Origin: Candidatus Methanoperedens sp.
GTDB taxonomy: Archaea; Halobacteriota; Methanosarcinia; Methanosarcinales; Methanoperedenaceae
Direction of reading: 5' to 3'
DNA length: 64,000 bases
NCBI GenBank assembly: GCA_012026835.1
Contig: VEPN01000001.1
Location: 1-64,000 of the forward strand
The first letter of the stretch is position 1. Each line of letters opens with the position of its first letter. The translations under genes were made by a program, and so were the position numbers. The notes beneath the pieces were generated by a model, which was given only the letters and a program-made list of their open reading frames with translations, ran no database searches and had not been told where the DNA came from. Shown here piece by piece: positions 4,946 through 48,350 of this stretch.

Positions 4946-5652
4946 GAATTCCTCCCTGCCGGGCATGCTACCATGCATTCGCAGCATGCTGAATATCCAT
5001 ACATGCCGTTGTGAGGCTTAATAACCTCATTGCACTTTTCCCACGCAATCCCCTCACCGGACAGGGCATTTCCCGGGCACGCTCTTATGCATCCCTGGCA
5101 TGAGGGGGGACATAGTTTCTCTGCTTCCTTCTTCGTTATTTTCCTGTCAGGGGAAAGCTGTGCATCTGTTATCACAGCCGCTACGCGTTGTCTTGGCCCA
5201 AAGCGCGGGGTTATCAGGAGGCGGCTTTTGCCAAGGATGCCAAGGCCTGCTTCAACAGCCGCATGCCTTGTCGAGATGCCAAACAGCCTGGGATATACGT
5301 TCATGTAGTCCCCGCTTTTGCGAAGGTCAGGATCTAAATTCCCTATCCTGTGAGGTATTATGACCGCACTGTATCCCCTGTCATCAAGGAACCTGCCTAT
5401 ATCATATGCAATCTGGTTATGATACATGTTCAGGGTGATATGATGCAGCGCGGACAGGAGAAGATTAGGTTTGACCGTGTCATGAAGTACCCTCACTCCC
5501 ACTACTATCACTGATCTCGCCCCGGAAAGAAGGTACTCGGGACGTTTTTCCTCAGGATATTCCTTAAATCTGTCTATCGAGGCTATCCCTGTAAGATCCG
5601 CGCCTTCTTTTAAAGCAAAGCGCTTCACAGCATCCGATGAAATTTTTTTCAT
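4942..5652 (-). CDS. QueG-like iron-sulfur protein (epoxyqueuosine reductase/reductive dehalogenase family)
   Basis: A 236-residue protein with the GADLTGIASIDRF start and the ISTRHAAVEAGLGILGKSRLLITPRFGPR block typical of the QueG/reductive dehalogenase superfamily. The C-terminus has two cysteine clusters (CPPSCQGCIRACP and CCECMVACP), as expected for 4Fe-4S clusters. It is shorter than QueG (about 350 residues), so it is probably not a true queuosine enzyme but an electron-transfer or cobalamin-linked relative. It overlaps both neighbours by 4 bp, showing strict cotranscription with two radical SAM genes. Confidence 0.75.
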   Translation of the reverse strand: MKKISSDAVKRFALKEGADLTGIASIDRFKEYPEEKRPEYLLSGARSVIVVGVRVLHDTVKPNLLLSALHHITLNMYHNQIAYDIGRFLDDRGYSAVIIPHRIGNLDPDLRKSGDYMNVYPRLFGISTRHAAVEAGLGILGKSRLLITPRFGPRQRVAAVITDAQLSPDRKITKKEAEKLCPPSCQGCIRACPGNALSGEGIAWEKCNEVIKPHNGMYGYSACCECMVACPAGRNS

Positions 5653-6806: not shown

Positions 6807-6862
6807 TCGATAATTTTCAACCGTATAAAATCCTCCTGGTTGCTTGTTAAAGGAAATACTTG

Positions 6863-6928
6863 CTTAAAACAGTGTACAAACCGACAATTATTGTTCCAAT
6901 TGTTCTGGAAATGGAAAGATTGCGGCAA
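6863..6928 (-). promoter_or_regulatory. Bipartite regulon promoter, copy 1 (radical SAM operon)
   Basis: On the minus strand TTGCCGCAATC starts at 6928 and TTGTCGGTTTGT starts at 6887, exactly 41 bp later. A TTTTAA box follows at the position where the other copies carry a TATA-like box. The second box is the most divergent minus-strand copy, but its spacing is identical. It lies about 80 bp upstream of the radical SAM reading frame. Confidence 0.7.
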
Positions 6929-6999
6929 AATGTCTCAGAAAGATAATCATGCCCTGGCAAAGAGAATCAAACCAGAACATGATAAAAAACTGGGCCGGT

Positions 7000-7242
7000 T
7001 TATCTGTTTTTCCTGATAAATATGTGATATACCCCCTTTCTTATTACAACATCGATGAACTCATGACCTGATTTTGTGATCCATACATCGATATTCTGCC
7101 ATGCTTCAGGGTCGTTGGCTATGACCTCAAGTACTGAACCCTGTGGTATTTTTTCTATTTCATTTTGCGTCCTGATAAGGGGATAGGGGCATTTTTCACC
7201 CCGCACATCTAACTCAAATTCCGGAACTATAGCCAAAATCAT
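7000..7242 (-). CDS. TusA-family sulfur carrier protein
   Basis: An 80-residue TusA/SirA-like protein with the motif CPYPLIRT; the Cys carries a persulfide in this family. It starts at an ATG preceded by a GGAGG site and is the last gene of the nitrogenase-like operon, 15 bp after the nifX-like stop. It is paralogous to the TusA at 22708-22941 (FELDVRGE-CPYPLIRT shared). Possible roles are sulfur delivery to the cofactor made by NifB or removal of sulfur released from a substrate; both are inference. Confidence 0.9.
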   Translation of the reverse strand: MILAIVPEFELDVRGEKCPYPLIRTQNEIEKIPQGSVLEVIANDPEAWQNIDVWITKSGHEFIDVVIRKGVYHIFIRKNR

Positions 7243-7257
7243 TGCCTCCGTTGACTT

Positions 7258-7440
7258 TTATTTTCCAATTTTTTCAAAGCATCCTGAATGAAATAAGGAG
7301 CTTCCAGGGGCAGGATACCGTTTTTTCTCAACCACCAATTCTGTTTTCCCATCACCAATTTCGAATATCAGGAACCTGGATGCTTTCCCAAAATGCTGGT
7401 TGATGACCTTGCCGTCACTTGAAACAACTGCAACTCTCAT
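7258..7440 (-). CDS. Half-length NifX/NafY-like FeMo-cofactor domain protein
   Basis: A 60-residue protein whose start (MRVAVVSSDGKVINQHFGKA then RFLIFEI) matches the dinitrogenase iron-molybdenum cofactor domain. That domain normally spans about 100 residues; here it stops after SGCFEKIGK, so only the first half is present. No in-frame continuation follows, and the next gene's ribosome site begins at once. It lies between nifB and tusA, as expected for a cofactor carrier. It may be a shortened functional variant or a truncated gene. Confidence 0.75.
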   Translation of the reverse strand: MRVAVVSSDGKVINQHFGKASRFLIFEIGDGKTELVVEKKRYPAPGSSLFHSGCFEKIGK

Positions 7441-7456: not shown

Positions 7457-8353
7457 TTACCCGTGAGAAAATGCAAGGGGGGAATCAGTATAAAGCAAAT
7501 GCCTGAATTCGCTAATTCCAGGGACACCGGCAGCGTCCGCACGGCACTGCATGCAATGCCTGAACACAGGGAGATACTTCTCTGCGGCATCCCTTGCCTG
7601 CTGCACTTGATGGCAATCAGGTCCGGGATGTTCATTCAATTCGTACTGGGGTATCAGCGGGATTATATTTATCATGGATGCCCCGGCCCGGGCGGTCGCT
7701 TTTGCTATTTCGCTGATATGCTGATCGTTAATACCGGGTGCAAGAACAGTATTGACCTTCACCACAGCCCCAAGCGTCGTTATCTTACCAATGCCCTGAA
7801 GCTGCGCTTCGATAAGATGGCTTGCAGCATCAATCCCATTTAACACCCTGTTATTTATTATTACATGGGAGCAGAGTCTGGCAAGTATCTCAGGCTGTAC
7901 CGCATTAACTGTGACTGTTACAGTCCTGATCCCTATCTCTGCAATTCTTTCGGCTTTATCAGGAAGATTAAGCCCGTTCGTGCTTAAGCATTTTATCATA
8001 TCAGGATAAGCAGCATCTATCAACTCGAATGTCCGCAGGGCATGGTCTGTAGCAAGAGGGTCTCCGGGTCCTGCAATGCCTGCAACGGTGATCCCAGGAC
8101 AAAGAAGAAGCGCCTTCTCAAGCATTTCAAGCGCATCTTGCGGCGCAAGCACTGATGATGCCACTCCGGGTCGGTTCTCAGTCTTGTTGAAACTTCGCAT
8201 GCAGAATTTACACTGGATATTGCAGGCCGGGGAAACAGGCAGGTGTATCCTGCCTGACCTGCCGTGACCTTCAATGCTGAAACAGGGGTGTATTTGAGAG
8301 ACGTGTAAAATATCTGATGGAACCCTCTTTACGCCAGAAAGATCCGGTTTCAT
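7457..8353 (-). CDS. nifB: NifB-like radical SAM cofactor maturase
   Basis: A 298-residue protein with the NifB signature: HPCF near residue 24, GRIHLPVSPACNIQCKFC with the radical SAM cysteines C44/C48/C51, NRPGVASSVL, and the C-terminal CMQCRADAAG. In nitrogenases NifB fuses two 4Fe-4S clusters into the 8Fe-9S-C NifB-co precursor. Its presence implies that the adjacent NifDK-like protein carries a carbide-type cofactor rather than a simple 4Fe-4S cluster. There is no fused NifX domain. It overlaps the nifK-like stop by 4 bp. The symbol is by homology; this may be the marB-type paralogue. Confidence 0.9.
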   Translation of the reverse strand: MKPDLSGVKRVPSDILHVSQIHPCFSIEGHGRSGRIHLPVSPACNIQCKFCMRSFNKTENRPGVASSVLAPQDALEMLEKALLLCPGITVAGIAGPGDPLATDHALRTFELIDAAYPDMIKCLSTNGLNLPDKAERIAEIGIRTVTVTVNAVQPEILARLCSHVIINNRVLNGIDAASHLIEAQLQGIGKITTLGAVVKVNTVLAPGINDQHISEIAKATARAGASMINIIPLIPQYELNEHPGPDCHQVQQARDAAEKYLPVFRHCMQCRADAAGVPGISEFRHLLYTDSPLAFSHG

Positions 8354-9774
8354 ATGACCTTTGCGAACTGCTCTGCCGGTTTCTTGTATCCATGCCTGGC
8401 AAGGGTACTATCGATTACCAGATGCATGTCCTTCATGAGAACCGTCACAATATCTTCTATCAGGGTGATTGAACCCCGATATCCTGCATAGCCCCTGGAT
8501 AATATGACGCGATCTGTTATCGGATAGGACACGCTTAACCGTGGAATGTCCAGTCTGTCCGCTATTCTCTTATCAAACGATCCGGCCAATAAGAACGTCG
8601 GGTGTGATTCTTCCAGTGCCCTCCATATCTTATTGCCATCGGATTCAATAATTATTTGCGGTTTTAAACCGTAATCCAGGCCAAGAATCTCTTTCCTGAT
8701 TGTATCATGAATCTCTGCCGGAGGTTCATCAGAGACAGCAACAAACGTCGGGTTCATGCCGAAATCATTCGCAAGGAATTTTATCAGGCCTATGGAATAC
8801 GTTGAATCGGCAATTACACCAATGTCCCTTTGCAGGTTAAATCCCGCATACAGATGCCCGAGCCTGTCCAGTTGCTTGAGGAATTGTTCCTCTTCCGAAT
8901 CGATGACAAGATCGACCAGTTCCCTGTCTATGCCAAGTGCTTCTGCGACAATTCTCAGGAATTTTGAAGTTTCTGAGCCTATGGGCAAATTGTATTTTAT
9001 CCACGGGACGCCGAATTTTTGTTTGAATAACTCGGCTGTGGACACGCCGACATACTCGGATAATACAATATTCAGGTCAGCATTTGATGACTTCTTTATT
9101 GTATCTATCGTATCGTAATCCCCCGACCAGCGGACTGACACCCCAAGCCTGTTAAGGAGTCTCTTGATCTCGATAATATTCCCCTGCCAGAACGGGTCCT
9201 GTGCAGGAACGATACCAAATAAATTGACCGAGATCTGTTCATCATTTTCATCCGGAGGTTCGACCAGTTGTTCAACCAGTGCCCTGCCGACCATATCATA
9301 ACCTGCATAGCTGTTTCCTTTAAAACCCGGCGTTTCGACCATGATAATGGTCTGGTCTTTTCGTTCTTTGAACTGGTCAACTATCGTCCTTATATCGTCA
9401 CCTATCAGGGCAACCTGGCAGCCGCTGAGAACAAAATAGAGGTCTGCTTCTGTTATCTCAAAACTTGCTTTCATCTGCTGGACGAGACGCCCCTCACCGC
9501 CAAATATGACGTGTTTTTCCACGAGGCTTGTAGAAGGGGTCATAAGCCCCCTTGCATGGCCGAATGTCTGCCATCCACTGCCAAAGCACTGTCCCATATA
9601 GAGGTTCCTGGAGCAGCCTGCCGAAGAATGGACTATGGGTATGGCTCCGACTATACCCCATACCGTTGCAAGAGCGCCACCAAGAGCACAGGTAAACCTT
9701 GGTGAAATAGTGCATGCAACTCTGGATTCTGTCAGTGGGGAATGGATGTTTCTGGACCCCGGTGTTTTAGACAT
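8350..9774 (-). CDS. Nitrogenase-like component 1 beta subunit (NifK/MarK-like)
   Basis: A 474-residue subunit of the nitrogenase component 1 superfamily. Three cysteines match the NifK P-cluster ligands: C29 (RFTCALGGA), C54 (SSAGCSRN) and C119 (LSGCQVALIGDD). The protein is shorter than NifK because it lacks the long N-terminal extension. It is translated together with the alpha subunit, whose reading frame it overlaps by 8 bp. Sequence outside the ligand blocks is not typical NifK, which argues for a nitrogenase-like reductase rather than N2 fixation; the exact clade needs a tree. Confidence 0.85.
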   Translation of the reverse strand: MSKTPGSRNIHSPLTESRVACTISPRFTCALGGALATVWGIVGAIPIVHSSAGCSRNLYMGQCFGSGWQTFGHARGLMTPSTSLVEKHVIFGGEGRLVQQMKASFEITEADLYFVLSGCQVALIGDDIRTIVDQFKERKDQTIIMVETPGFKGNSYAGYDMVGRALVEQLVEPPDENDEQISVNLFGIVPAQDPFWQGNIIEIKRLLNRLGVSVRWSGDYDTIDTIKKSSNADLNIVLSEYVGVSTAELFKQKFGVPWIKYNLPIGSETSKFLRIVAEALGIDRELVDLVIDSEEEQFLKQLDRLGHLYAGFNLQRDIGVIADSTYSIGLIKFLANDFGMNPTFVAVSDEPPAEIHDTIRKEILGLDYGLKPQIIIESDGNKIWRALEESHPTFLLAGSFDKRIADRLDIPRLSVSYPITDRVILSRGYAGYRGSITLIEDIVTVLMKDMHLVIDSTLARHGYKKPAEQFAKVI

Positions 9775-11308
9775 GGGCTTTCACCTCGCCTTTGACCCCG
9801 AAATCTTTTCCATATACCGCCTCATCAGCCTCATCTATGAGGAACCTGTAGGGATCAGGGTATTGCAGCCATTCTTTCTTATAGGGGAATTTCCCGTATT
9901 TTTTGGTATATAATTCCACTTTTTTATGATACGATGGGTTTTTCAATACATAGGCGAGGCTTCGTGCTGTCTCAAGAGCGCCCGTGTACCCCATATGCGG
10001 CCTTGCAAAATCAAAAGTGGTCAGGGTTACGACCCCGTTCTTGGCAAACCAGATGGATGGTTCGAAATCCCCGAAATAAATATCGGGTTTCTCTCTCTGT
10101 ACCATGTTCTGCGTTTCAGTAATCTGCCCGATACCTGAAATAACGAGAGGGAAGTCCCCGCCTCTTGTTACAAGGTCTTCAAGCGTGTTCTGGTTAATGG
10201 GCGGGTCGTACTGGAAAGCGTTGACACCCATAACTTTCATTCCAAGCTCCATCGCCAGGCTTGCGCATCCGAGGGCCCTCGGGATATTTACGCTTATGAA
10301 TACTTTCTTACCTTCCAGCTCTTTTTTATATTTATTGAATTCCGGAAGTATGCGCCTGTGTTCTTCTTCGATTAATGTTTCAGCTTCTTTCTCTTTCCCG
10401 AAATGGGCCGCAACTTTTCGTACCCAGTCATCCGTGTATTCGATGCTTGCCGCATAGTGCGTGTCGATCAATGGAATGCCCCAGTGTTTCTCAAGCTGTT
10501 CCGCCAGATAATGGGATGCCTGTGAGCACAGGGCGACCGATGCCGCTGATTCGGTTGCATATTCAAGGCTGTCCAGCGAATTATAATTTAATATTACGTT
10601 TGATTTTATTCCAAGCTTCTCCAGCAACTCAATGAACGGCTGTTCGTCTATCGGGCCTATTGTCGGGCCGCTAATGATGTTCACCGTATCTTTTTTCTTT
10701 TCCCTTGGCTCTTTTAGCACATGTTCTATCAATTCATGCCACATGATATCCCACATTGTTCCCACATGCAGTGTTTTATAGCCCTCACAGTGGACAGCAA
10801 AAACATTGGCTTTGACCCGGGACTGGACTTTTTTGATGGATGCTTCCACATCATCCCCTATGATCCCGGCCGCGCATGATATCCCTACTGCGATCGCTCT
10901 GGGATGGAAGAACTCATCTGTTTCAATAATAGCTTGTTCAAGTTTGGCTGCCCCTCCAAAAACAACGTCTTCCTCATTAAGCTCGGTTGTAATGATATCA
11001 GTTGTTGTTTCAGGAACGCCTCTTGACTTTTGCTGTATTGGCCCGAACAGCCCGAATAATATCGCGCCTGCCGTGCAGCCGACAGGAGAGTGGGCCAGCA
11101 CCTTGACCTCAGGAAAAGCGCATGTATTCATAATGGCAGCTATGAACGCGCATGAACCTGAGCCTGAATATGTCCTGCATTTCCGGGGCATATTCTTTCC
11201 CTTTGAGCATTTAATAAGCTCCGATGCAGTGCCGCCAAAATGCACTATCCCGTCAAGCCTTTTTTCTCTTCCCTGGAAAATGCCGATATCTCTTTCAAAA
11301 TTTGCCAT
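9767..11308 (-). CDS. Nitrogenase-like component 1 alpha subunit (NifD/MarD-like)
   Basis: A 513-residue subunit. P-cluster cysteines are C53 (SGSGSCAF), C78 (SPVGC) and C145 (GISCAAGIIGDD), with spacings of 25 and 67, close to NifD (26 and 66). The active-site cofactor ligands also appear kept: C261 in VALCSQASHYL corresponds to NifD Cys275, and H438 in FARPHMGYTG to NifD His442. This sets it apart from CfbD, BchN/ChlN and other relatives without the M-cluster site. The order is H-D-K-B with no nifI genes between H and D and no nifE or nifN after K. Substrate is unknown; a C-S bond reductase is proposed. Confidence 0.87.
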   Translation of the reverse strand: MANFERDIGIFQGREKRLDGIVHFGGTASELIKCSKGKNMPRKCRTYSGSGSCAFIAAIMNTCAFPEVKVLAHSPVGCTAGAILFGLFGPIQQKSRGVPETTTDIITTELNEEDVVFGGAAKLEQAIIETDEFFHPRAIAVGISCAAGIIGDDVEASIKKVQSRVKANVFAVHCEGYKTLHVGTMWDIMWHELIEHVLKEPREKKKDTVNIISGPTIGPIDEQPFIELLEKLGIKSNVILNYNSLDSLEYATESAASVALCSQASHYLAEQLEKHWGIPLIDTHYAASIEYTDDWVRKVAAHFGKEKEAETLIEEEHRRILPEFNKYKKELEGKKVFISVNIPRALGCASLAMELGMKVMGVNAFQYDPPINQNTLEDLVTRGGDFPLVISGIGQITETQNMVQREKPDIYFGDFEPSIWFAKNGVVTLTTFDFARPHMGYTGALETARSLAYVLKNPSYHKKVELYTKKYGKFPYKKEWLQYPDPYRFLIDEADEAVYGKDFGVKGEVKAHV

Positions 11309-11319: not shown

Positions 11320-12201
11320 TCAGTTATTCCTATTGTTCCCGTTGTTCCCGTTACTGCCGTTATTCCCTTTTAGCAAACGGTTTGACCATTTATCTGCCCA
11401 TTGCTGGAGGCTGCCGGATTCCAGGGGAGCAGGAATATGGCTGTGGCCGTTCTCAATAATATTTTTAGCCAGTTTCCTGTATATGTTGGCCTGTTTGGAC
11501 TTTGGGGCGCCCTCAAGCACGGACTTGCCTTTGAGCTCGCATTTTGCGACCGTGAGTGACCTTGGAACATACTCCACTATTTTTGTTTTTGTTTCTTTGC
11601 TAAAATCATCGATTATATTCTTATGAATATCCTTGTTTACGGAATTTGCTATAATTCCCCCCAGGAGCGCGCCGCCGTTATTGGAATATTTCCGGATCCC
11701 CTTAAAAAGGTTATTGGCAGCGTATATGGCCATGAAATCCGATGATGTTACCGTATATACCTGCTTGGCAAGCTGCTCACGGATTGGCATTGCAAATCCT
11801 CCGCAGACCACGTCCCCGAGGACATCGTAAATAATAACATCCGGTTTATAGATATCATAGATCTTTTGCTGCTTCAGGATATCAACTGCGCTGATGATAC
11901 CCCTGCCCGCGCAGCCGACTCCGGGTTCCGGACCCCCGGCTTCGACACAAAGGACCCCGCCATACCCTTCATGAACAATATCTTCAGGCTTTATTGCTTT
12001 TCCGCTTCTTAAAGTATCAAGCACGGTCGGGATAAATGCCCCGCCTCGTAGCGTATTTGTTGAATCGCTCTTGGGGTCGCATCCCACCTGCATTACTTTA
12101 TAACCCAATTCACTCAAGGCAACGCTTATATTGGAAGTTGTTGTGGACTTGCCAATACCGCCTTTTCCATAAATGGCGATCTGTTTTATCTCATCTGACA
12201 T
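11320..12201 (-). CDS. Nitrogenase-like iron protein (NifH-family reductase)
   Basis: A 293-residue ATPase that would donate electrons to the NifDK-like complex. It has the P-loop GKGGIGKST at residues 12-20, the bridging 4Fe-4S cysteines C97 (GVGCAGRG) and C133 (DVVCGGFAMP), and Arg100, matching NifH numbering almost exactly. The C-terminus carries a low-complexity Asn/Gly tail (GNNGSNGNNGNNRNN) coded by short tandem repeats. The ATG follows a GGAGG site. It is the first gene of the nifHDKB operon, 72 bp downstream of the second box of the conserved promoter. Confidence 0.92.
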   Translation of the reverse strand: MSDEIKQIAIYGKGGIGKSTTTSNISVALSELGYKVMQVGCDPKSDSTNTLRGGAFIPTVLDTLRSGKAIKPEDIVHEGYGGVLCVEAGGPEPGVGCAGRGIISAVDILKQQKIYDIYKPDVIIYDVLGDVVCGGFAMPIREQLAKQVYTVTSSDFMAIYAANNLFKGIRKYSNNGGALLGGIIANSVNKDIHKNIIDDFSKETKTKIVEYVPRSLTVAKCELKGKSVLEGAPKSKQANIYRKLAKNIIENGHSHIPAPLESGSLQQWADKWSNRLLKGNNGSNGNNGNNRNN

Positions 12202-12248
12202 TTGTTATCCTCCTTTTAGTTTCATTTTGGCAAGATATATCACGGGAT

Positions 12249-12314
12249 AATATAGCATTATAGAAATCAGCAATTATAGACGGTTTTATTCTGTTTTTTT
12301 AATTATAGAGGCAA
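12249..12314 (-). promoter_or_regulatory. Bipartite regulon promoter, copy 2 (nifHDKB operon)
   Basis: On the minus strand TTGCC starts at 12314 and TTGCTGATTTCT at 12273, exactly 41 bp apart. A CTATATTAT box follows about 20 bp after the second box, and the nifH-like ATG is 72 bp downstream of it. Layout and sequence match the other five copies. Confidence 0.85.
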
Positions 12315-12373
12315 TTCTTTCCGATTCGATACCAATATTGGGAAACACTATGAATAGACATTATGAACGGCAT

Positions 12374-13533: not shown

Positions 13534-14538
13534 TTATTTATACGGGTTGAATTCATTGGTATAAACGTCTGAGATCTTTATCTCTCCTTCTTTTAAGTTG
13601 CCATATTTAACCATGATATCGATCCATTTCTGGACAATCCCATCTGTCATCAGCCCATGCCCGACCCATACGCGCCGGTCCATATAACGGCTCGTTAAAG
13701 GATCCAGCGCCAGTTCCTCGGAAATTATTTTATCTGCTTCATCAGGATGGGCATTGGTCCAGTCCTCGGCTTTTGCGATCGCAGATACAAATCCTTTCAG
13801 GGCAGCAGGCTTCTCCTTTATGACCCTGTCAGAGGATATGACAAGGGAGACAGCCCCATTCATCGTATCATAATCCGTGAATAATCTCCTTCCGCCTGTA
13901 TTTACGGCTATTCCCGAATATGGCGCGTGCAAAATACCAACATCTATCAATCCCTGTTTTAAAGCCTGCCACTGCTGAGAATCAGGCATTGTCACCAGTT
14001 CGACATCGTTAACTGTCAATCCGCCGGTCTTTAGATAATCAGCAAGGGAATAATACATGCACCCTTCATTTAAGATCACGGATACGCCGATTTTTTTGCC
14101 TTTCAGGTCTTTTGCGCTCCTGATAGTGCTATTTTCCAGGACTGTAGCTGACATATGCGGATGATCCCGTGTGGCATCGCTTCCTGCGGCTATTATTTTA
14201 AAATCCATCCCTGAGAGCCTTGATTTGATTACCGTGTCCGTATGCCATCCAAGAATAACATCAATATCTCCTGAGGCCAATACCGTTTTCACAACAGAGG
14301 ATTGTATAGCACCCACTTTTTCGACCGTTATGCCTTCCTGTTCGAAGAATCCTTTTTTTTCTGCGACTATTGCAATGACTGAAGTGCCAAAATCCGGGGT
14401 CGGGATCCTTACGACAGGTCTCTGTATATCTGTTGAAGGCTTTTCCTGTATATTATCGGCCCTGGAAAAACCGTATATGCCTGCAATTACCAGGACTATG
14501 GCTATTAAACCGATTATCATGGTCAAGTTCTTATTCAT
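13534..14538 (-). CDS. ABC transporter substrate-binding protein (NMT1/SsuA type)
   Basis: A 334-residue binding protein with an N-terminal hydrophobic signal/anchor (MIIGLIAIVLVIAGIYGF) and no lipobox Cys. The mature part has PTPDFGTSVIAIVAEKKGFF, ASGDIDVILGWHTD and VTMPDSQQWQALKQGLIDV, the pattern of nitrate/sulfonate/taurine and THI5-like binding proteins. It overlaps the upstream paralogue by 8 bp. No permease or ATPase is in the same operon, so it probably works with the components at 15.7-20.5 kb. Confidence 0.85.
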   Translation of the reverse strand: MNKNLTMIIGLIAIVLVIAGIYGFSRADNIQEKPSTDIQRPVVRIPTPDFGTSVIAIVAEKKGFFEQEGITVEKVGAIQSSVVKTVLASGDIDVILGWHTDTVIKSRLSGMDFKIIAAGSDATRDHPHMSATVLENSTIRSAKDLKGKKIGVSVILNEGCMYYSLADYLKTGGLTVNDVELVTMPDSQQWQALKQGLIDVGILHAPYSGIAVNTGGRRLFTDYDTMNGAVSLVISSDRVIKEKPAALKGFVSAIAKAEDWTNAHPDEADKIISEELALDPLTSRYMDRRVWVGHGLMTDGIVQKWIDIMVKYGNLKEGEIKISDVYTNEFNPYK

Positions 14539-15550
14539 TTAAACCACCATCTTTAAAATAAGGGTTAAACTCGTTCGTGTATATGTCAGAGGTTTTTACC
14601 TGTCCCTCTTTCAGCAGCCCGTATCTTGTTAATGTGTCAATCCAGTTCTGTACTTCCGTGTCAATTAATAAAGCATGTTCGGGGCTGTTGAACCCTTCCA
14701 TATCCGCAGCATCCAGACCAAGGCGTTTAGCTTCTATTTGATATGCTTCTTCTCGATGTTCATTTGCCCAGTCAAGAGTTTTCGCTGTGGTTTTAACGAA
14801 GCGTTTAACAACATCGGGATGATCTTTGATCGTATCTTCACTTACCCAATAAAGCGCCAGCCCCAGGCTTTCATCAAGATCATTGTCATCGAACAGCTTC
14901 CTGACACCGCCCGCATTGGTCAATTTCTTGTTAAAAGGGGCATGTACGAATACAGCATCTACCTGATGCGAACGAAGTGCCTGTTCCTGTTGCGAATCCG
15001 GCATTGAAGTAAGCTCAATTGATTCTTTTGGAATGGAAGAACCGGCTTTTTGTCGCATATACTCATACATCATGTATTCCGAGCAACCTCCAAATCCCCA
15101 TATAGCCACTTTTTTCCCGGTCAGATCCTGAGCCGTTCTGATACTGCTGTTCTCCAGGACGAACAGGCTCATATGCGGGTAGCCGGGAATTGTTCTTGTC
15201 GTCCCTGCAATACCTTTTATTTTTGCGCCTTTTGCCACTGCATTAATAACCCTGTTGGCATGCCCGCCCCCAACATCGATATCCCCGCTAACGGTCGCAG
15301 TTACATACTGTTCTGTAGGAAGTACTCCAACGAATTCGATATTTAATCCTTCTTCTTTAAAGAATCCTTTTTCAAAACCCACAGAGACAGGGTCGTATGC
15401 AGGACTTGTTACCATTTTTAAAGTGTATAATTCAACATCCTTGGTTGGAGCGATATCCGAATTTGTTCCACTGCTATTTAGCGCGAAGTAAGCACCGATT
15501 AACACCAGTATCACTATTCCGGATATCAAATATTTAATATTATTTTTCAT
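14531..15550 (-). CDS. ABC transporter substrate-binding protein (NMT1/SsuA type)
   Basis: A binding protein of about 339 residues, paralogous to the next gene and to 17656-18837 (shared TSMPDSQQEQALRSHQVDAV and C-terminal SDIYTNEFNPY). I start it at the ATG at 15550, which gives a normal lysine-plus-hydrophobic signal (MKNNIKYLISGIVILVLIG); a GTG at 15586 is an alternative with an unusual leader. It is the first gene after the conserved promoter at 15718-15652. The family binds aliphatic sulfonates, nitrate, taurine or thiamine precursors; the ligand here is unknown. Confidence 0.83.
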   Translation of the reverse strand: MKNNIKYLISGIVILVLIGAYFALNSSGTNSDIAPTKDVELYTLKMVTSPAYDPVSVGFEKGFFKEEGLNIEFVGVLPTEQYVTATVSGDIDVGGGHANRVINAVAKGAKIKGIAGTTRTIPGYPHMSLFVLENSSIRTAQDLTGKKVAIWGFGGCSEYMMYEYMRQKAGSSIPKESIELTSMPDSQQEQALRSHQVDAVFVHAPFNKKLTNAGGVRKLFDDNDLDESLGLALYWVSEDTIKDHPDVVKRFVKTTAKTLDWANEHREEAYQIEAKRLGLDAADMEGFNSPEHALLIDTEVQNWIDTLTRYGLLKEGQVKTSDIYTNEFNPYFKDGGLNE

Positions 15551-15651
15551 TTTTATCAACTCGATTATTAGACCACGCTTTTTCACATTCTACTAAAATT
15601 TTGCAAGCTCAACTCCATGAGCTATCTTTCATTCGGCCTAAGTTCACAGGC

Positions 15652-15718
15652 ATATAAGAAATTATAGAAATCAACAACTTTAGCCGCGTTTCTTTCGAAT
15701 CCGGCGGGAATGCGGCAA
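15652..15718 (-). promoter_or_regulatory. Bipartite regulon promoter, copy 3 (binding-protein/MFS operon)
   Basis: On the minus strand TTGCC starts at 15718 and TTGTTGATTTCT at 15677, exactly 41 bp apart. A CTTATATGC box lies about 20 bp further on. It sits in the gap between the permease stop and the binding-protein start, showing that this gap holds a separate promoter rather than being part of one long operon. Confidence 0.85.
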
Positions 15719-15745
15719 ACCGATGAAAAAAGGAAGCGCTATTTC

Positions 15746-17655: not shown

Positions 17656-18837
17656 CTATTTTGATGTGAGGTTAACATCTCTCTTCTTCGCCCATTCGAG
17701 CTGGTAAGTATCATAGAAAGTGGGATTCTTCACCGGGTCGTTGACCTTGTATCTGTCATACGGGTTGAACTCGTTCGTGTAAAGGTCTTTTAATTTGACA
17801 TCCCCCGGTTTCAGGAGCCCGATATCTTCATACCAGTCAATCCATTGCTGCAACGCTCTTTCTCTGACAAGACCTGTAGCTGAAAGATGATGCTCTCCTT
17901 CGACAGCAGGCGGCCAGCCATTCAGCGCCCCTATGTATTCGGCGCTTATTTCATGATTGTCGTCCGTCCATGCCTGTGATTTCACATATGCCCTGACAAG
18001 ACCTCTTACTGCTTCCGGGTTCTTGTCTATGAATTCCTGTGTAAACCCGATCATGCCGATCTCAGCATCCTGTTTATCGACAGGGCTTTTACCGAATACA
18101 TCCCAGCTTGACCATAATTTCCTGAATCCTCCCTTCTTCTGGTAAACCGCGGAATAAGTCGGACCTGCAGTAATGGCATCCACCAGTCCCTGTTTTAATG
18201 CTTGTTCATGCTGCGGTTCGGGAACGTTGACCGGGATGACCTGATCCCTGGGTATATTGTATTCTTTGAAATATGCAGTCCAGTAAAAACCTCCGCATCC
18301 AAGGTCCCATGAACCCACCTGGGATGGGCTGGTAGCTACTTTTTTCCCGATCAGGTCTTTTGGTTCCTTGATCGAGCTGTTCTCCAGTACATATATATCG
18401 TGATGAGGATAAACAGGATGTCCGAAGCTGGCAGTCATTACTCCTTTTATTTTCATCCCGCCTTTGTTCGCATTAATAAAAAAATCAGGATGAGCAGATA
18501 CAAAATCGATCTTACCTGTTTTCAGGGCAACAAGCTGGTCGGCCCATGGGATTGCGCCGACTCGCTCTAACCTGATACCCTCTTCCTCAAGAAACCCGTA
18601 TTTCTCTGCAATTACTTCCTGTCCGCTGTGGAATGTGGGAGGGATCGGGATCTTCAGAGTTATTATCTCCTCTGGCTTTTCCCCTGCAAAAAGATCATCT
18701 TTTGATTGCGCCGGTACTGCGCCGGATTTTTCCTGTACTTTGTTCAAATCACTTTTTCCCAGGCTCCATCCGATGGTGCCTGCCAGGATTATTACGATCA
18801 CTAAACCCGAAATCAGATATGTCTTATTTTTTTCCAT
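17656..18837 (-). CDS. ABC transporter substrate-binding protein (NMT1/SsuA type)
   Basis: A 393-residue binding protein, the longest of three paralogues in the region. It has a signal/anchor (TYLISGLVIVIILAGTIGW), FHSGQEVIAEKYGFLEEEG, and the shared C-terminal KDLYTNEFNPYDRY. The segment WDLGCGGFYWTAYF is distinctive and holds the only conserved Cys. It lies 17 bp downstream of the permease gene, giving the order ATPase-permease-binding protein. Ligand is unknown; the family covers sulfonates, taurine, nitrate and aromatic acids. Confidence 0.85.
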   Translation of the reverse strand: MEKNKTYLISGLVIVIILAGTIGWSLGKSDLNKVQEKSGAVPAQSKDDLFAGEKPEEIITLKIPIPPTFHSGQEVIAEKYGFLEEEGIRLERVGAIPWADQLVALKTGKIDFVSAHPDFFINANKGGMKIKGVMTASFGHPVYPHHDIYVLENSSIKEPKDLIGKKVATSPSQVGSWDLGCGGFYWTAYFKEYNIPRDQVIPVNVPEPQHEQALKQGLVDAITAGPTYSAVYQKKGGFRKLWSSWDVFGKSPVDKQDAEIGMIGFTQEFIDKNPEAVRGLVRAYVKSQAWTDDNHEISAEYIGALNGWPPAVEGEHHLSATGLVRERALQQWIDWYEDIGLLKPGDVKLKDLYTNEFNPYDRYKVNDPVKNPTFYDTYQLEWAKKRDVNLTSK

Positions 18838-18853
18838 TTTTTCCCTCCGTTTT

Positions 18854-19639
18854 TTAACTGCGAACTATCTCCTCTTTCCATTTGCTTACACTTCTCTCAA
18901 CGCCAATCAGGAGGTAGTTGATAACTACACCCAGTATTGTCAGCGCCACTATCGCTGCGTACATATCCGGGATAGCGAATTTTGCCTCTGAGTTGATCAC
19001 AAAAAAACCCAGTCCCGCATTTGCCCCGATCATCTCGGCAGCTACCAGGACTATCAATGATACTGTGCCAGCATATCTCAGGCCGGTAAATATGGCAGGG
19101 GCGGCTGCAGGCAGAACTACTTTCCTGAACATGCCTGTATGAGGAATTCCCATAGACCTTGCCGATTTTATTAAAAGGGGGTCAACATTCAGTACTCCGC
19201 TCACGGTGTTCAGGAAGATCGACCAGAAGCATGCCAGCGCAATTATAGCAAGTTTTGAAACCTCCCCGATCCCGAAGAACAGGATAAATACCGGAAATAA
19301 AGCAAGAATAGGAAGCTGTCTCATTGTTTGCAGCAGGGGGTCCATATACTTCTCGAAAGTCTTGAACCACCCGACGATGAAACCAAGAGGTATGGCTGTC
19401 AACGCCGCTATAGCAAATCCACCAAAAGCCCGCTGTAAACTTATTGAAGTATGTTTGAACAAAACCCCTGTTATGACAAGGTCATAAAGAGCCGAAAATA
19501 CGACCGATGCCGGCGGAAGAAAAACCGGATCGACCAGACCGGTTCTTGGAGCTATTTCCCAGATTAACAGAAATAGTATAATGGCAAATACTTTCTGTGG
19601 TAATAATTTTAACTGTTTAACAATATTTGCTGATCCCAT
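18854..19639 (-). CDS. ABC transporter permease (SsuC/TauC type)
   Basis: A permease of about 261 residues with six predicted membrane segments and the coupling loop IKSARSMGIPHTGMFRKVVL. I start it at the ATG at 19639, which follows a GTGAGGG ribosome site made from the end of the ATPase gene; a GTG at 19663 would overlap that gene by 19 bp. It is paralogous to 15746-16504. It forms the membrane part of the importer with the ATPase just upstream. Confidence 0.87.
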   Translation of the reverse strand: MGSANIVKQLKLLPQKVFAIILFLLIWEIAPRTGLVDPVFLPPASVVFSALYDLVITGVLFKHTSISLQRAFGGFAIAALTAIPLGFIVGWFKTFEKYMDPLLQTMRQLPILALFPVFILFFGIGEVSKLAIIALACFWSIFLNTVSGVLNVDPLLIKSARSMGIPHTGMFRKVVLPAAAPAIFTGLRYAGTVSLIVLVAAEMIGANAGLGFFVINSEAKFAIPDMYAAIVALTILGVVINYLLIGVERSVSKWKEEIVRS

Positions 19640-19644
19640 ATCCC

Positions 19645-20505
19645 TCACTTTGCCGTTTCCCACTTCGAAAAATTCGAAACTGCATTTCCTGATATCTGCT
19701 GTGCCCTGACAACTTCCTCTTTTAGAAGTTCCCAGAGTTTATATCTTGATTTGACAAAATCCTGTGATGACCTGATGTCGTCTTCGAACCTGTCGTTCCT
19801 TGCTATGGGGATATCTTCCATTTTTTTTATGACCCCCGGCCTTGCCGTCATGATCGCAACCTTATCAGAGAGGAATACGGCTTCATCGATGCTGTGGGTA
19901 ATGAATAATATTGTTTTGTGCGTCTCCTCCCAGATGTGCAGCAGTTCACGCTGCAGTATCTCTCTTGTCTGGGCATCCAGTGCGCCGAATGGCTCATCCA
20001 TCAGCAGTATATCGGGATCAAAAGCAAGCGCTCTTGCTATCGCTACGCGCTGTTTCATCCCGCCGCTGAGTTCATACGGATATCTGTCCTCAAAACTGTT
20101 AAGTCCGACAAGTGTCAGGTATTTCTGGGCGGTCCCTCTTCTCTCATTTTTCGGGATATTCTGGCTCTCAAGCCCGAACTCCACATTCTCAAGGGCTGTT
20201 CTCCACGGGAAAAGCGCGTATTGCTGGAACACGATACCCCTGTCAAGACCCGGTCCTTCTACGGGCTTGCCATCGATGTATATATTACCTTCGTTAGGCT
20301 TTGATAATCCCCCCACGAGATCCAAGAACGTGGATTTTCCGCATCCGCTTGGACCTACAATGGATATGAACTCACCCTTGTTGATTGCCAGGTTTACCCC
20401 TCCCAGCGCCAGCAATTCGTTCGAAGAGTTGCCATTATTTCTTGAATTTCCATTGGTTCTGATCTTGAATGTTTTTTTGATGTTTTCTGCCTTTATTTTC
20501 GTCAT
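19645..20505 (-). CDS. ABC transporter ATP-binding protein (SsuB/TauB type)
   Basis: A 286-residue ATPase with Walker A GPSGCGKST, the Q-loop in VFQQYALFPWRTALENVEFG, signature LSGGMKQRVAIARALA, Walker B DILLMDEPFGALD and the H-loop FITHSIDEAV. These are typical of nitrate/sulfonate/taurine importers. It is the only ATPase for two permeases and three binding proteins in the region. An Asn/Gly-rich insert (NGNSRNNGNSSN) lies after the first beta strand, similar to the tail of the NifH-like protein. Confidence 0.92.
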   Translation of the reverse strand: MTKIKAENIKKTFKIRTNGNSRNNGNSSNELLALGGVNLAINKGEFISIVGPSGCGKSTFLDLVGGLSKPNEGNIYIDGKPVEGPGLDRGIVFQQYALFPWRTALENVEFGLESQNIPKNERRGTAQKYLTLVGLNSFEDRYPYELSGGMKQRVAIARALAFDPDILLMDEPFGALDAQTREILQRELLHIWEETHKTILFITHSIDEAVFLSDKVAIMTARPGVIKKMEDIPIARNDRFEDDIRSSQDFVKSRYKLWELLKEEVVRAQQISGNAVSNFSKWETAK

Positions 20506-20604: not shown

Positions 20605-20680
20605 CCCAGGCGCCTCCTTTTTCCATTTCAGAATGTTGTTTTGATGCCATGAACCTCTTTCTTGCCTTATGACATCACGT

Positions 20681-20747
20681 ATATAAGAGAATATAGAAAT
20701 CAGCAATAGTTGACCGAAAAATTCGTTTTTCTGAATTAATCGGGCAA
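20681..20747 (-). promoter_or_regulatory. Bipartite regulon promoter, copy 4 (ABC importer operon)
   Basis: On the minus strand TTGCC starts at 20747 and TTGCTGATTTCT at 20706, exactly 41 bp apart, with a CTTATATAC box about 20 bp further. The six bases before the second box (CAACTA) are identical to those in the metYXW copy. The 28-residue leader starts 102 bp downstream. Confidence 0.85.
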
Positions 20748-20803
20748 TATTTTCTCCATTAATTACAATACCATGTAGGTGATTTTGAAATAACAAAAAT
20801 AAA

Positions 20804-21022
20804 TCAATGTTTTCTTATGACAAATTTGACCTCGCTGCCCGATTCCTTGATATTTACTACTTCATGCCCGTGTTCCCTTATCCACTGAGGTATCGTGCTT
20901 TTCGCCACAGCATCATCTGTCAATACTTCAAGCTCTTCCCCGGATTTTAATTTCTCTATCTCTTTCTTGGTATAAAAAAGCGGCAGCGGGCAAACCCTGC
21001 CTCTTGCGTCCAGTTTATGCAT
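20804..21022 (-). CDS. TusA-family sulfur carrier protein
   Basis: A 72-residue protein with the LDARGRVCPLPLFYTKKEIEKL pattern of TusA and SirA-like proteins; the Cys in CPLP is the expected persulfide carrier. It is less like the other two TusA proteins here than they are like each other. It ends about 60 bp upstream of the 20.7 kb promoter element. A TTGCC occurs upstream of it, but without the second box, so it is not an obvious member of the shared regulon. Confidence 0.88.
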   Translation of the reverse strand: MHKLDARGRVCPLPLFYTKKEIEKLKSGEELEVLTDDAVAKSTIPQWIREHGHEVVNIKESGSEVKFVIRKH

Positions 21023-22943: not shown

Positions 22944-23318
22944 TTAGAACACCAGCGTGACTTCGCTCTCCAGTATCTTGTTTGTGAGGTCATCGAGGCT
23001 CAACTTTGATATCCCATCGATGATCTCGCTCTCAACTACACCTCTCTTCTTCAGGTCAGTTTCAAGCGCATAGAACTTGACGCTGTCCTTTGCCTTTATG
23101 ATAGAAGCTTCGATGCTCGGTATGTCTTTCTGCCATACGGCAGCATCGCCGTAGCTGGTCTTCTGTCCTTTCACGATTGAATGCACTCCTCCGCTCACGA
23201 AAGTGATGGAAGGGGAATTGCCTGCCGCAGCCTGCGTCTCGGCAAGAGGAATTGCGCTGTAGGCGTCCTCTTTGCCGTATGGAGGCTGGGTCACGATTAT
23301 GTTTACTTTCTTGCTCAT
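22944..23318 (-). CDS. DsrE/DsrF-family sulfur relay protein
   Basis: About 124 residues starting MSKKVNIIVTQPPYGKEDAYSAI, a DsrE/TusD-type fold. The ATG at 23318 lies 4 bp after the upstream stop; a longer frame from 23375 would overlap the upstream gene and is rejected. No Cys is present in the usual active position, so it may be a structural subunit. It follows two other DsrE-like genes and precedes tusA. Confidence 0.78.
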   Translation of the reverse strand: MSKKVNIIVTQPPYGKEDAYSAIPLAETQAAAGNSPSITFVSGGVHSIVKGQKTSYGDAAVWQKDIPSIEASIIKAKDSVKFYALETDLKKRGVVESEIIDGISKLSLDDLTNKILESEVTLVF

Positions 23319-23322
23319 GTTC

Positions 23323-23703
23323 TCATCCCAGTAATATTGTCTTGTCTGATTCTGCTGTCCATTCCCCGAGGTCATAGAGACCGCCGATAACTACACCCTC
23401 GGTCTGCTGCTTTGTCACACCGCGGGCATCGGTGCATTTGATGCATGCGATCGCATCGGTTTTTGGAGTCTTGAGCCCTTTCTTAAGTATGGTGCCAAAG
23501 AGCTGCTCTACGACTGGGAACTCTTTTGGTCCCTGGTCTTTGTGCCCGATGATCGTGCCGTCAAGGTAGTTGAAGAAATTGACGTTGATACCCTTCTCCT
23601 TTGCAGCATGGGCGAGCCTGATGAGTGTGTATGCCGCCTCATCCCTGTAAGGTCCGTTTATGGAGACAATTGTTAAAGTTTTGCTGTTGCCGTTGTTTGC
23701 CAT
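23323..23703 (-). CDS. DsrE-family sulfur relay protein
   Basis: About 126 residues starting MANNGNSKTLTIVSINGPYRDEAAYTLI, typical of DsrE/TusD. It has cysteines in AIACIKCTDARGV, where DsrE carries its reactive Cys, so this is the likely sulfur-binding subunit. The ATG at 23703 follows GGTGACTG. The N-terminus contains another NNGN tract. It sits 11 bp downstream of the DsrH-like gene. Confidence 0.8.
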   Translation of the reverse strand: MANNGNSKTLTIVSINGPYRDEAAYTLIRLAHAAKEKGINVNFFNYLDGTIIGHKDQGPKEFPVVEQLFGTILKKGLKTPKTDAIACIKCTDARGVTKQQTEGVVIGGLYDLGEWTAESDKTILLG

Positions 23704-23714
23704 ATCAGTCACCT

Positions 23715-24041
23715 TTAGAACCATGCCACCCTGGTATTATCCTCAACTATATGGTCAAGGAGAGTGCCGATTTCCTTTACTTCCACGCCTGCTATCAGGT
23801 TGCCGTCAAGTCCCCTTGATTGCACAGCCCTGTCGTCTGCGAGTATCCTGATGCCTTTCTTTTTGGCATCCAGAAGTTTATTTCCGAATTCGCTTTTCCT
23901 TACAGCGGTAACACCGTCCTCGACAAGATAAAGAGAGACGTCATTACCTTTTGTCTTGGCCTTTAACCCAATATCCAGCACCAGATTCGGTATCTCGGTT
24001 GTATATGGGTCTTTGGACAATACTAACAATAGATTTGCCAT
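23715..24041 (-). CDS. DsrE/DsrH-like sulfur relay protein
   Basis: A 108-residue protein (LLLVLSKDPYTTEIPNLVL, then DVSLYLVEDGVTAVR) of the DsrE/DsrH/TusB-like fold. The last part (GVEVKEIGTLLDHIVED) resembles the C-terminus of small DsrE proteins. No Cys is seen. It begins 2 bp after the stop of the broken first gene of the operon (TAA-AC-ATG), so translation is coupled. Confidence 0.75.
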   Translation of the reverse strand: MANLLLVLSKDPYTTEIPNLVLDIGLKAKTKGNDVSLYLVEDGVTAVRKSEFGNKLLDAKKKGIRILADDRAVQSRGLDGNLIAGVEVKEIGTLLDHIVEDNTRVAWF

Positions 24042-24266: not shown

Positions 24267-24301
24267 ATTGTATCACCTGATACCCGATAGAGAACTCAGT
24301 A

Positions 24302-24367
24302 CATATATCAGTTCAGAAATCAGCAACTTTTGATGGTTCTATTATGGATTCGTAGTAATAGGGGCAA
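24302..24367 (-). promoter_or_regulatory. Bipartite regulon promoter, copy 5 (DsrE/TusA operon)
   Basis: On the minus strand TTGCC starts at 24367 and TTGCTGATTTCT at 24326, exactly 41 bp apart, followed by GATATATG about 18 bp later. The first ATG of the operon is 60 bp downstream of the second box. Confidence 0.85.
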
Positions 24368-24410
24368 GTTTTGTCACAAAAATTTGATATATAAATAACA
24401 GTATCACATT

Positions 24411-43798: not shown

Positions 43799-45043
43799 AT
43801 AGCCCCCTCTCCGAACTTACATCTCAGCAAGCTCTCTGACACCTATATTAAACAATTTGGCAGTTCTTATAAGCTCAGAAGTTAAATGGAAGGCTCTAAT
43901 AACCTTCTTTAATATACTTTCTTTTGTGAACTGGTGTACCTTGTTCAGCCGCACATAATTTTTTGCCACATTGAAAAAAAGTTCAATATTTGATCTGATT
44001 TCTCTAAAACCTGTCCATATTTCTGCTATTTGAATAAATTCCCTAACAATTTTCTTCCAGATATCTAATAAATATGGCTTTCCACTCCAAATATCGAGAG
44101 GTGGAGTTAAGATTGCCAATATTCTTTTTAGATCAGTATTTTTTCTGGCAAATATCATGGGAACCAGTAAAAACCTGCTTATCAAAATATGGTAATTCTG
44201 AATTGAAGTAAAACCTCTGTCACAAATGACGAAGTCCCCCATTCTCAGTTTTCTCGAATTACGGAGATTTTCAATGAATTTTCCCAGGAGTTTTGAATCA
44301 TTCGGGGAACCTTCGTAGATCTCAAATCCCAATACATCGAAAGTTATGGCGTCCATCGCCAGGATAAGCTTGTATCCCACATAATAGCTGTCGGATGATG
44401 AATATGACCACGTATATTTTTTGCCTTTAACGATATCGAATCTTTTTCTCCAGGTATTGATATCAACTGGAATTGCAGTAGTATCGATTATTACTTATTT
44501 TCTACCTTTTCTACGGGTATTTGATACCACTTTGAAGACATTTCTGAAAAAAGCGTTTATGCACCTACTATCTAATTTTGAGATATATTTGTAGAGATAT
44601 TCGATTTCAGGTACATTTTTTAACTCCATGAAGCTTTTAAGTTTCTTATTGGTCTGTATTTCAGAAATAACTTATGAATAATCAAGTTCAAAGGTATCAC
44701 TGAGATGAGTATTTTTATGCAATCTAAGAATATTTTTACATCTGGAATTTTCAATCTGCTTGCAATTTTTTTAGCATGTGCTGAACTGATTGATTTAAGC
44801 ATTTCTTGAACAATTAACCACTTTGGATTGGATAAATCCGGTATTAAAGGTATTTCCATTATCTATTCACCAAAAATACCTTTAATATCTAATTATTTAT
44901 TAATATTGCGGTTTTAATCGGCGATATAACTTAAATAATCTTTATTTCTTTTTCTTTTTAATTTAAAGTGTATGAAATTACTTAAAATAAGTATCAGAGC
45001 ATTTTAGCTGAATAGAAATGACATGGGTTGGAGAGGGGGCTAT
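43799..45043. mobile_element. Decayed insertion sequence with intact inverted repeats
   Basis: The ends ATAGCCCCCTCTCC (43799-43812) and GGAGAGGGGGCTAT (45030-45043) are perfect 14-bp inverted repeats enclosing a broken transposase gene. Element length is about 1.24 kb. A short ATAA-type duplication may flank it but the exact border is ambiguous. Its right end is about 107 bp before the metYXW regulon promoter. Confidence 0.8.
43817..44859 (-). pseudogene. DDE transposase, degenerate
   Basis: An IS4/IS5-like DDE transposase broken by at least one frameshift and one stop. The N-terminal piece starts at 44859 (MEIPLIPDLSNPKWLIVQEM). The middle runs in another frame with an in-frame TAA just before VIIDTTAIPVDINTW, which carries the first catalytic Asp. 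The longest piece, 43817-44380, has YKLILAMDAITFDVLGFEI and the second Asp in GDFVICDRGF. No active enzyme can be made from this copy. Confidence 0.8.
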
Positions 45044-45149
45044 AAAGAGTTTAAGCTTTGCATAAAGCTGGATTGGATTGTTCTTATTTGGTACTTATTT
45101 TTACCAGATGTTATGCGGATAACTATAATATAGATTTTCCTAACATCAT

Positions 45150-45215
45150 TTGCCGCAATCATTCCCCTTGTGTAATACTCTTAACAACTATCGCCTGTTT
45201 CTGTGCATATTTAAC
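45150..45215 (+). promoter_or_regulatory. Bipartite regulon promoter, copy 6 (metYXW operon)
   Basis: On the plus strand TTGCCGCAATC starts at 45150 and TCGCCTGTTTCT at 45191, exactly 41 bp apart, with ATATTTAA at the TATA position. The first box extends to TTGCCGCAATCATTCC, matching copy 1 in 15 of 16 positions, and CAACTA before the second box matches copy 4. The second box matches consensus at 8 of 12 positions, so this copy rests mainly on spacing and the flanking matches. metY starts 74 bp downstream. From 45044 to 45264 there is no gene. Confidence 0.65.
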
Positions 45216-45264
45216 CCTGCGTGCCAATCAATCTCCACCAGAACCACATTAAAGGAGAATTTAA

Positions 45265-46563
<1,299 letters not shown>

Positions 46564-46578
46564 CTTTTGCCTGTCCAC

Positions 46579-47769
46579 ATGAGCAAGACAATTGCAATAG
46601 AGAGCCCGGAAAACAAAAAACAGAGCGAAGGCATAGGGATCATAGAGACCGGATATTATACTTTTTCGAATCCTCCTGACGAGTTGATACTTGAATCCGG
46701 TAAGCCATTTGGTCCCGTGACCCTTGCATACGAGACATACGGGAAACTCAATAACCAGAAAACCAATGCGATCCTTGTTCTCCACGCCCTGTCGGGAGAT
46801 GCCCATGCTGCGGGATATCACCAGGGAGATATAAAACCAGGCTGGTGGGATGAGATGATAGGACCCGGGAAAGCATTTGATACAGATACTTATTTTGTGA
46901 TATGCTCCAATGTAATCGGCGGGTGCAGGGGCTCGACGGGTCCATCCTCAATTAATCCCGATACGAACAAACCATATGGGCTGGGTTTCCCCACGATCAC
47001 AATCAAAGATATGGTCAATGCCCAGAGGCGCCTGATAGACCATCTCGGCATCCCAAAACTTCTGTGTGTTGTCGGTGGCTCGATGGGAGGTATGCAGGCG
47101 CTACAATGGGCGGCATCTTATCCCGACAGAGTGCGTTCTGTTATTCCCATTGCCACGACCCTGAAGCATTCTCCGCAGCAGATCGCTTTCAATGAGGTGG
47201 GGCGGCAGGCAATCATGGCTGATCCCGACTGGAACGGGGGCAATTATTATGCTAAAGTTCCTCCTGTAAAGGGCCTTGCAGTGGCACGGATGATCGGTCA
47301 TATCACTTATATGAGTGATATTTCCATGAACAATAAATTCGGGAGGCGCTTTAATAATGGAAAAAAACATCCCAGGTTCGGCGCTGAGTTTGAGGTGGAA
47401 GGATATCTTCATTATCACGGGGATAATTTTGTTAAGAGGTTCGATGCTAATTCGTATCTTTATATAACCAGGGCACTTGATTATTTTGATCTCTCAAACG
47501 GCAGGACGCTCTTTGAAGTTTTTAAAGGGATCAAAGCACAATTTCTCATAATTGCGTTTAAATCCGACTGGTTATATCCTGCTTATCAATCAAAAGATAT
47601 CCTGAAAATATGTAAATTAGCAGGCATTGAGGCTACATATTGCGAAATAAATTCTACATACGGGCATGATGCGTTCCTCCTGGAGATTGAGGAAGAGACT
47701 TATCTTATCAGGCATTTTTTGAAAAGAGTATATAACGGGTATGTAATGGTCGAGGCACACGGGATATGA
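46579..47769 (+). CDS. metX: Homoserine O-acetyltransferase
   Basis: About 396 residues from the ATG at 46579, 15 bp after metY. An alpha/beta hydrolase fold with [11 protein letters not shown]-type start ([18 protein letters not shown]), the nucleophile Ser in [15 protein letters not shown] and the catalytic His in YGHDAFLLE. It makes O-acetylhomoserine for MetY. Its end overlaps metW by 4 bp. Confidence 0.95.
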
Positions 47770-48350
47770 TTCCACTAATAGAATACAGAATTATTCTTAA
47801 CTGGATATTAGACAAGTCCTCTGTGCTTGATCTTGGATGCCACGAAGGAGAATTACTGTCCCTGATAGTGAAAGAAAAGAATGCCAGAGTGCATGGTATT
47901 GAAATTAATGAACAAGCTATTTATAAATGCGTAGAGCTGGGTTTGAGCGTATCCCATCAGGACATTGATAATGGTCTTTCAGAGTACGGCGATGAATCAT
48001 TTGATTATGTGATACTGAACCAGAGCCTCCAGCAGGTAAAAAAACCGGATGTAGTTTTGAAAGAGTCTTTAAGAGTGGGGAAAAAGGTGATTATTGGATT
48101 TCCAAATTTTGCACATTATAAGGTACGGTGTCAGATATTCTTCAGAGGAAAGACGCCAGTTACCCCTTCATTACCATATGAATGGTATGAAACGCCTAAC
48201 CTGCATTTCCTTAGTATCTCTGATTTCATTGGCTATTGTCAGAGACAAAATATCAGGATAATAAGAACCGCTTTTATTAATAATAATGGAAAAGCCGGTA
48301 TACTCCCTAATCTATTGGCACAAACCGGTCTATTCCTTATTTCTAAATAA
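47766..48350 (+). CDS. metW: Methionine biosynthesis protein MetW
   Basis: 194 residues with a methyltransferase fold: [19 protein letters not shown] (motif I), [16 protein letters not shown], and [18 protein letters not shown]. MetW is commonly paired with MetX and is needed for its activity in some bacteria. It starts inside the metX stop (ATGA). The gyrA gene ends 11 bp away on the other strand. Confidence 0.92.

Follow-up and report, generated by a model that had tools for sequence, protein, structure and literature searches.

A two-box promoter element upstream of metYXW suggests a sulfur-limitation regulon in Methanoperedenaceae

The methionine-synthesis genes metYXW of Candidatus Methanoperedens sp., a methane-oxidising archaeon, lie 21 kb from a nitrogenase-like gene region, on the opposite strand, and both carry the same promoter element. 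The nearest named neighbours of this metY come from MAGs of the genus. The window analysed here is a stretch of 64,000 nucleotides (contig VEPN01000001.1, positions 1 to 64,000). A first-pass annotation of this window had placed the two loci correctly, had linked methionine synthesis to the nitrogenase-like region through the element, and had regarded metY as its least certain member. Our analysis suggests that the metY site is probably a promoter element of a sulfur-limitation regulon of the Methanoperedenaceae, with two boxes that would be bound by an activator-type regulator and with metYXW among the members. The features are listed in Table 1.

Table 1. Positions of the metY element, its counterparts and the genes discussed in the text (window coordinates unless a locus is named)
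Feature	Position	Strand	Remark
Box 1 at metY, TTGCCGCAATCATTCC	45150-45165 (core TTGCCGCAATCATTC, 45150..45164)	+	kept upstream of metY in six genomes
Box 2 at metY, CAACTA + TCGCCTGTTTCT	45185..45202	+	conserved form of CAAnnnTTGCTGATTTCT specific to metY; 41 bp from box 1
TATA-like box CATATTTAA	45206-45214	+	position within ~3 bp of TATA in other copies
metY, O-acetylhomoserine sulfhydrylase	45265..46563	+	TIGR01326 667 bits, cut-off 495; PF01053
metX, homoserine O-acetyltransferase	46567..47769	+	NF001209 520 bits, cut-off 331
metW	47766..48350	+	TIGR02081 225 bits, cut-off 189.5; PF07021
Element copy upstream of radical-SAM cluster (3587-6806)	6861..6938	-	
Element copy upstream of MAR-like marHDK and nifB-like gene	12247..12324	-	
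Element copy upstream of sulfonate-type substrate-binding protein genes	15651..15728	-	
Element copy upstream of Ssu/Tau-type ABC transporter operon	20680..20757	-	
Element copy upstream of three DsrE-family genes	24300..24377	-	
TusA-family protein	7000..7242	-	PF01206
nifB-like radical SAM	7457..8353	-	TIGR01290 272 bits, below cut-off 344
marK-like	8350..9774	-	best PDB 9d9u/9fmg chain, E 8e-74; next 2.5e-28
marD-like	9767..11308	-	best PDB 9d9u/9fmg, E 5e-60; next = nitrogenase, 1e-37
marH-like (NifH-type reductase)	11320..12201	-	only PDB match at E<=1e-90 = MAR 9fmg_D, E 3e-122
Two SsuA/NMT1-type substrate-binding proteins	13534..15586	-	
SsuA-, SsuC-, SsuB/TauB-like transporter genes	17656..20505	-	
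TusA-family protein	20804..21022	-	PF01206; just upstream of the 20.7-kb element, hence not clearly its target
Three DsrE/DsrF-family genes	22944..24041	-	PF02635 x3
Element-linked S-layer frames	L173:2050-4245 (G006); L181:5203-6777 (G012); L186:11636-13717 (G019); L177:15075-15896 (G009)		

The element consists of box 1 (TTGCCkCAATnnTTC), box 2 (CAAnnnTTGCTGATTTCT) 41 bp downstream, start to start, a TATA box about 20 bp past the start of TTGC in box 2, a short leader and the gene. The six copies in the window align without a gap over 78 bp. The spacing of the boxes is 41 bp, about four helical turns, in 28 of the 29 copies measured and 42 bp in the other. No part is more constant than box 1, which lies about 60 bp before TATA and has TTGCC in 29 of 30 copies; box 2 contains an imperfect CAA-N3-TTG dyad. 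The box 1 of metY is identical to the copy at 6.9 kb at 15 of 16 positions, and TTGCCGCAATCWTTCC occurs without mismatch at just two sites in the 3.3 Mb genome, namely here and in the 6.9-kb copy. The CAACTA that precedes box 2 (45185-45190) is also present in the 20.7-kb copy. Box 2 itself, TCGCCTGTTTCT, has its first base at 45191, exactly 41 bp from that of box 1, and agrees with TTGCTGATTTCT at 8 of 12 positions. The first-pass annotation had reported this near identity, the CAACTA, the exact spacing, the TATA box in register and the weak second box, and all of these observations were reproduced. The start codon of metY is at 45265, with AGGAG at 45253-45257, and archaeal promoter geometry would place the transcription start at approximately 45232-45240.

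Scoring with profiles that exclude metY confirmed that its site belongs to the element, with scores well above those expected by chance. A weight matrix made from the four strongest window copies ranks metY sixth (64-bp core) or seventh (78 bp) among ~128,000 window positions, and a five-copy matrix without metY, again over the 64-bp core, ranks it sixth with 21.2 bits, compared to 6.7 for the next site. Two models were used beyond the window. R1 was made from the five window copies other than metY and served to find copies in other genomes; R2 was made from 24 R1 matches, from which the window's genome and all metY sites were left out (one site is represented by two of the 24 rows because it falls in two overlapping stretches, leaving 23 distinct copies). 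With the matrix of these 23 foreign copies, metY scores 17.8 and ranks sixth in the window, with only the five known copies above it. Dinucleotide shuffling of the window (150 shuffles) gave maxima that average -12.9 and reach 11.0 at most, and none of the shuffles reached the metY score. A profile search of the whole 3.3 Mb genome with R2 found the metY site as the tenth best (E 0.0025).

Conservation upstream of metY, which the first-pass annotation had proposed as a check, was found throughout the close relatives. A metY of at least 87% identity is present in six of the Methanoperedens genomes searched (G000, which is the window's own, G006, G009, G012, G019 and G021); the relatives compared are MAGs, and in G009 the metY reading frame is interrupted near the C-terminus. 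The element precedes metY in all six at the same distance, with ~54-61 bp between the end of the match (R1 in five genomes, R2 in G021) and the start codon. The R2 scores are 19.6 (G000), 25.2 (G006), 27.9 (G009), 26.0 (G012), 24.0 (G019) and 28.6 bits (G021). When the six promoters are aligned, they agree from TTGCC to the TATA box and again at the leader, and show no overall alignment upstream of box 1. The box 2 variant ACAACTATCGCCTGTTTCT is near-invariant across the six genomes and is therefore best read as a metY-specific conserved form, not as a decayed box. This removes the doubt that had been attached to the membership of metY. A YeiH-family gene, annotated as ‘putative sulfate exporter’, lies upstream of metY in G009 and G012 and has no counterpart there in G000. 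In G006 (C129, L176), G009 (C63, L179) and G012 (C73, L183), a PstS-family binding protein with an element of its own adjoins metYXW; the substrate of the PstSCAB-like system may be a sulfur oxyanion instead of phosphate.

The element is largely confined to the Methanoperedenaceae. With R2 at E<=0.001, it was found in 26 of 30 other members of the genus, in all three other members of the family and, weakly, in one of 26 outgroup genomes, which represent four further families of the order. No element was obtained at E<=1 for distant metY loci, archaeal or bacterial, or at E<=0.001 for two genomes of the same order whose MetY is 72% identical. We rejected the idea that the element is a by-product of metY homology, as these distant and same-order metY loci are without it.

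In the clusters annotated, the genes behind the element are largely related to sulfur. Copies orthologous to the one before the window's DsrE genes are present in G006, G009, G012 and G019, and the orthologous radical-SAM cluster of G019 is also preceded by a copy. This cluster encodes a B12-binding radical SAM protein, an RDH/QueG-like protein and a variant radical SAM protein; it is conserved at 87–89% identity in G019, where it adjoins the MAR-like genes. Elsewhere in the window's genome, the element is located before another SsuA-type operon with a CO-dehydrogenase-like gene (C101:327), before a PstSCAB-like operon (C97:47444) and, with 40 bits, directly before the gene of a 111-amino-acid protein without a Pfam match (C101:4775; L170:4882-5217). 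A strong copy of 46 bits (C97:45381-45449; L169:5382-5450) has no evident gene on the same strand for more than 2 kb; it may belong to a small RNA or a tiny gene, or may be a relic. The targets in relatives are SsuABC, DsrE genes, S-adenosylhomocysteine hydrolase, methyltransferases, HGD-D/BcrAD-type proteins, MFS and molybdate-type transporters and S-layer proteins. An aconitase-family protein, the PstSCAB-like transporter and the CO-dehydrogenase-like gene are exceptions, not obviously connected with sulfur.

The nitrogenase-like genes had been named nifHDKB, a name that does not fit the comparison with known structures: among PDB sequences, to which this comparison is limited, H, D and K are all far closer to methylthio-alkane reductase (MAR) of Rhodospirillum rubrum than to any nitrogenase. 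The R. rubrum system (MarBHDK; PMC12552129, PDB 9FMG) has the same nitrogenase-like H, D and K with a nifB-like gene, and is the best PDB match of all three subunits. The system in the window differs from it in being archaeal, in its strongly diverged D subunit, in an archaeal TATA promoter with the new two-box element and in its linkage to ABC importers and DsrE genes. In an alignment, the MarD-like protein has the cysteines equivalent to C66, C91, C158 and C270 of MarD. It has no histidine at the position of His429, a ligand of the [Fe8S9C] cluster in R. rubrum MAR; strict membership in MAR was rejected on this ground, and we use the term ‘MAR-like’. The HDK proteins are closest to MAR and not to nitrogenase, and the absence of the His429 ligand makes the substrate of the MarD-like protein uncertain. 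The MarD-like proteins may form a separate archaeal branch among MAR-like enzymes, acting on other substrates. Four diverged MarD-like paralogues in G019 likewise lack an equivalent of His429. A short NifX/NafY-like frame (7258-7440), flanked by the TusA and nifB-like genes, appears truncated by eye. The proposed link between methionine synthesis and the nitrogenase-like region stands insofar as the element is common to both. The coupling is wider, however: G006, G012 and G021 have metY with the element, but their D-subunit matches are just at the NifDK level, without a close MAR-like homologue. With three of the six genomes in this state, the coupling of metY would therefore be to sulfur scavenging in general, and the link to MAR would not be obligatory.

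S-layer genes are located behind the element, alone or in an operon headed by it, in G006, G009, G012 and G019. The mature parts of these proteins contain 0–0.69% Cys+Met, with none in the 658 residues of the G019 protein. Across the same five genomes, the content of the 21 other S-layer frames is 0.72–4.17%, and the two groups do not overlap. A rank test gives P 8e-5, which is indicative only, as some of the 21 frames overlap each other and two of the four element-linked frames are partial. Changes of the proteome that spare sulfur under sulfur starvation are known from bacteria and yeast. The feature in common is a version of an abundant surface protein with hardly any Cys or Met; the difference is that here the genes are those of archaeal S-layers and the case is made from sequence. 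The element-linked S-layer is possibly a sulfur-sparing cell coat, and its low Cys and Met content would be an independent sign of sulfur limitation.

We propose that a sequence-specific regulator would bind the two boxes from the same helical face, immediately upstream of BRE/TATA, and would touch and recruit TBP/TFB when sulfur or methionine is scarce. The regulator would co-induce sulfonate-type uptake, the MAR-like C–S bond-cleaving enzyme, sulfur-carrier proteins and metYXW and, in relatives, Cys/Met-poor S-layer proteins as well. O-acetylhomoserine from MetX can be combined by MetY with methanethiol or sulfide. As a recruited member of the regulon, metYXW would turn scavenged reduced sulfur, for example methanethiol derived from MAR, into methionine. 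The O-acetylhomoserine sulfhydrylase family is able to use methanethiol. When sulfate runs low, R. rubrum MAR makes methanethiol, described as the ‘direct precursor to methionine’ (PMC12552129). Co-regulation of the MAR-like genes with metY would therefore be sensible. A gene for the regulator was sought beside the element clusters by eye and with Pfam, and none stood out.

The same element and regulon could be controlled by a repressor that comes off the DNA once sulfur or methionine is exhausted. Box 2 abuts BRE/TATA, where a bound protein could block TBP/TFB, and the imperfect dyad would suit a dimeric repressor. Two boxes in an invariant 41-bp phase and at a fixed distance from TATA are, however, more typical of activators, and the TATA sequences vary, several of them being weak. 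We consider repression rather unlikely; the fixed geometry, taken by itself, is the basis for proposing that the regulator probably activates. It is much less likely still that the element has no regulatory function and is just a strong promoter in general use across the genus, made up of BRE, TATA and upstream context. It does include the TATA region and sits at a normal promoter distance, but its copies in the 3.3 Mb genome number only about ten and are concentrated ahead of operons for sulfur uptake and sulfur transfer, and box 1 is more constant than any other part. No ribosomal, mcr or other housekeeping promoter with both boxes was noticed among the annotated matches.

The name nifHDKB would suggest nitrogen control, with an NrpR-type operator tying the synthesis of methionine to nitrogen fixation. 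In methanogens, the operators of NrpR (GGAA-N6-TTCC) are likewise sequence-specific sites near archaeal TATA promoters of nitrogenase-related genes, and NrpR is present in the genus, in G009 (C65) beside one of the element clusters, more simply because NifDK-like genes adjoin. The operator, sought as GGAA-N5..7-TTCC, is however in none of 30 element copies, HDK are MAR-like, and the R2 search gave no element match on C64, which carries the other NifDK-like pair of the genome. Nitrogen control is strongly disfavoured on these grounds and is very improbable. Given that box 2 of metY is off consensus at 4 of 12 positions, the metY site taken singly might be a chance or residual similarity. Against this, none of the 150 shuffles reaches its score, and the variant box hardly changes across the six genomes, although their flanking sequences cannot be aligned; conservation in the six genomes refutes a chance match, to which we assign a negligible probability. 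Equally little weight falls on a switch in the metY leader RNA (SAM or methionine riboswitch) in place of a DNA element. Bacterial methionine genes often carry riboswitches, but the conserved block at metY is located upstream of the TATA box and so is probably not transcribed, and no Rfam match was obtained in 44900-45400; the riboswitch was rejected.

Regulation by an activator in response to sulfur limitation has parallels in bacteria, where CysB/Cbl control the ssu, tau and cys genes under sulfate starvation. Here too, sulfonate importers and sulfur-assimilation genes would be grouped under one control, through a common element. The difference lies in the regulator: no LysR substrate-binding domain (PF03466) was found above the cut-off in the 45 genomes searched, the element-bearing ones included, and a LysR-type (CysB/Cbl) protein is unlikely to be involved. 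A search of the open-licence literature gave no account of such a sulfur-limitation regulon for anaerobic methanotrophic archaea, which points to a regulon of the Methanoperedenaceae that is undescribed so far.

On balance, although with less assurance than for the metY site, we favour the view that the Methanoperedenaceae would have an archaeal sulfur-starvation response of their own. Through the two-box element, this response would join organosulfur uptake, nitrogenase-like C–S cleavage, recruited methionine synthesis and a near sulfur-free S-layer that replaces the cell coat. The element gives a short list of promoters to look up in metatranscriptomes that may already exist, and is a genome-based handle for predicting the genes with which uncultured Methanoperedens find sulfur. 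It also suggests a role other than nitrogen fixation for the nitrogenase-like enzymes of Methanoperedens.
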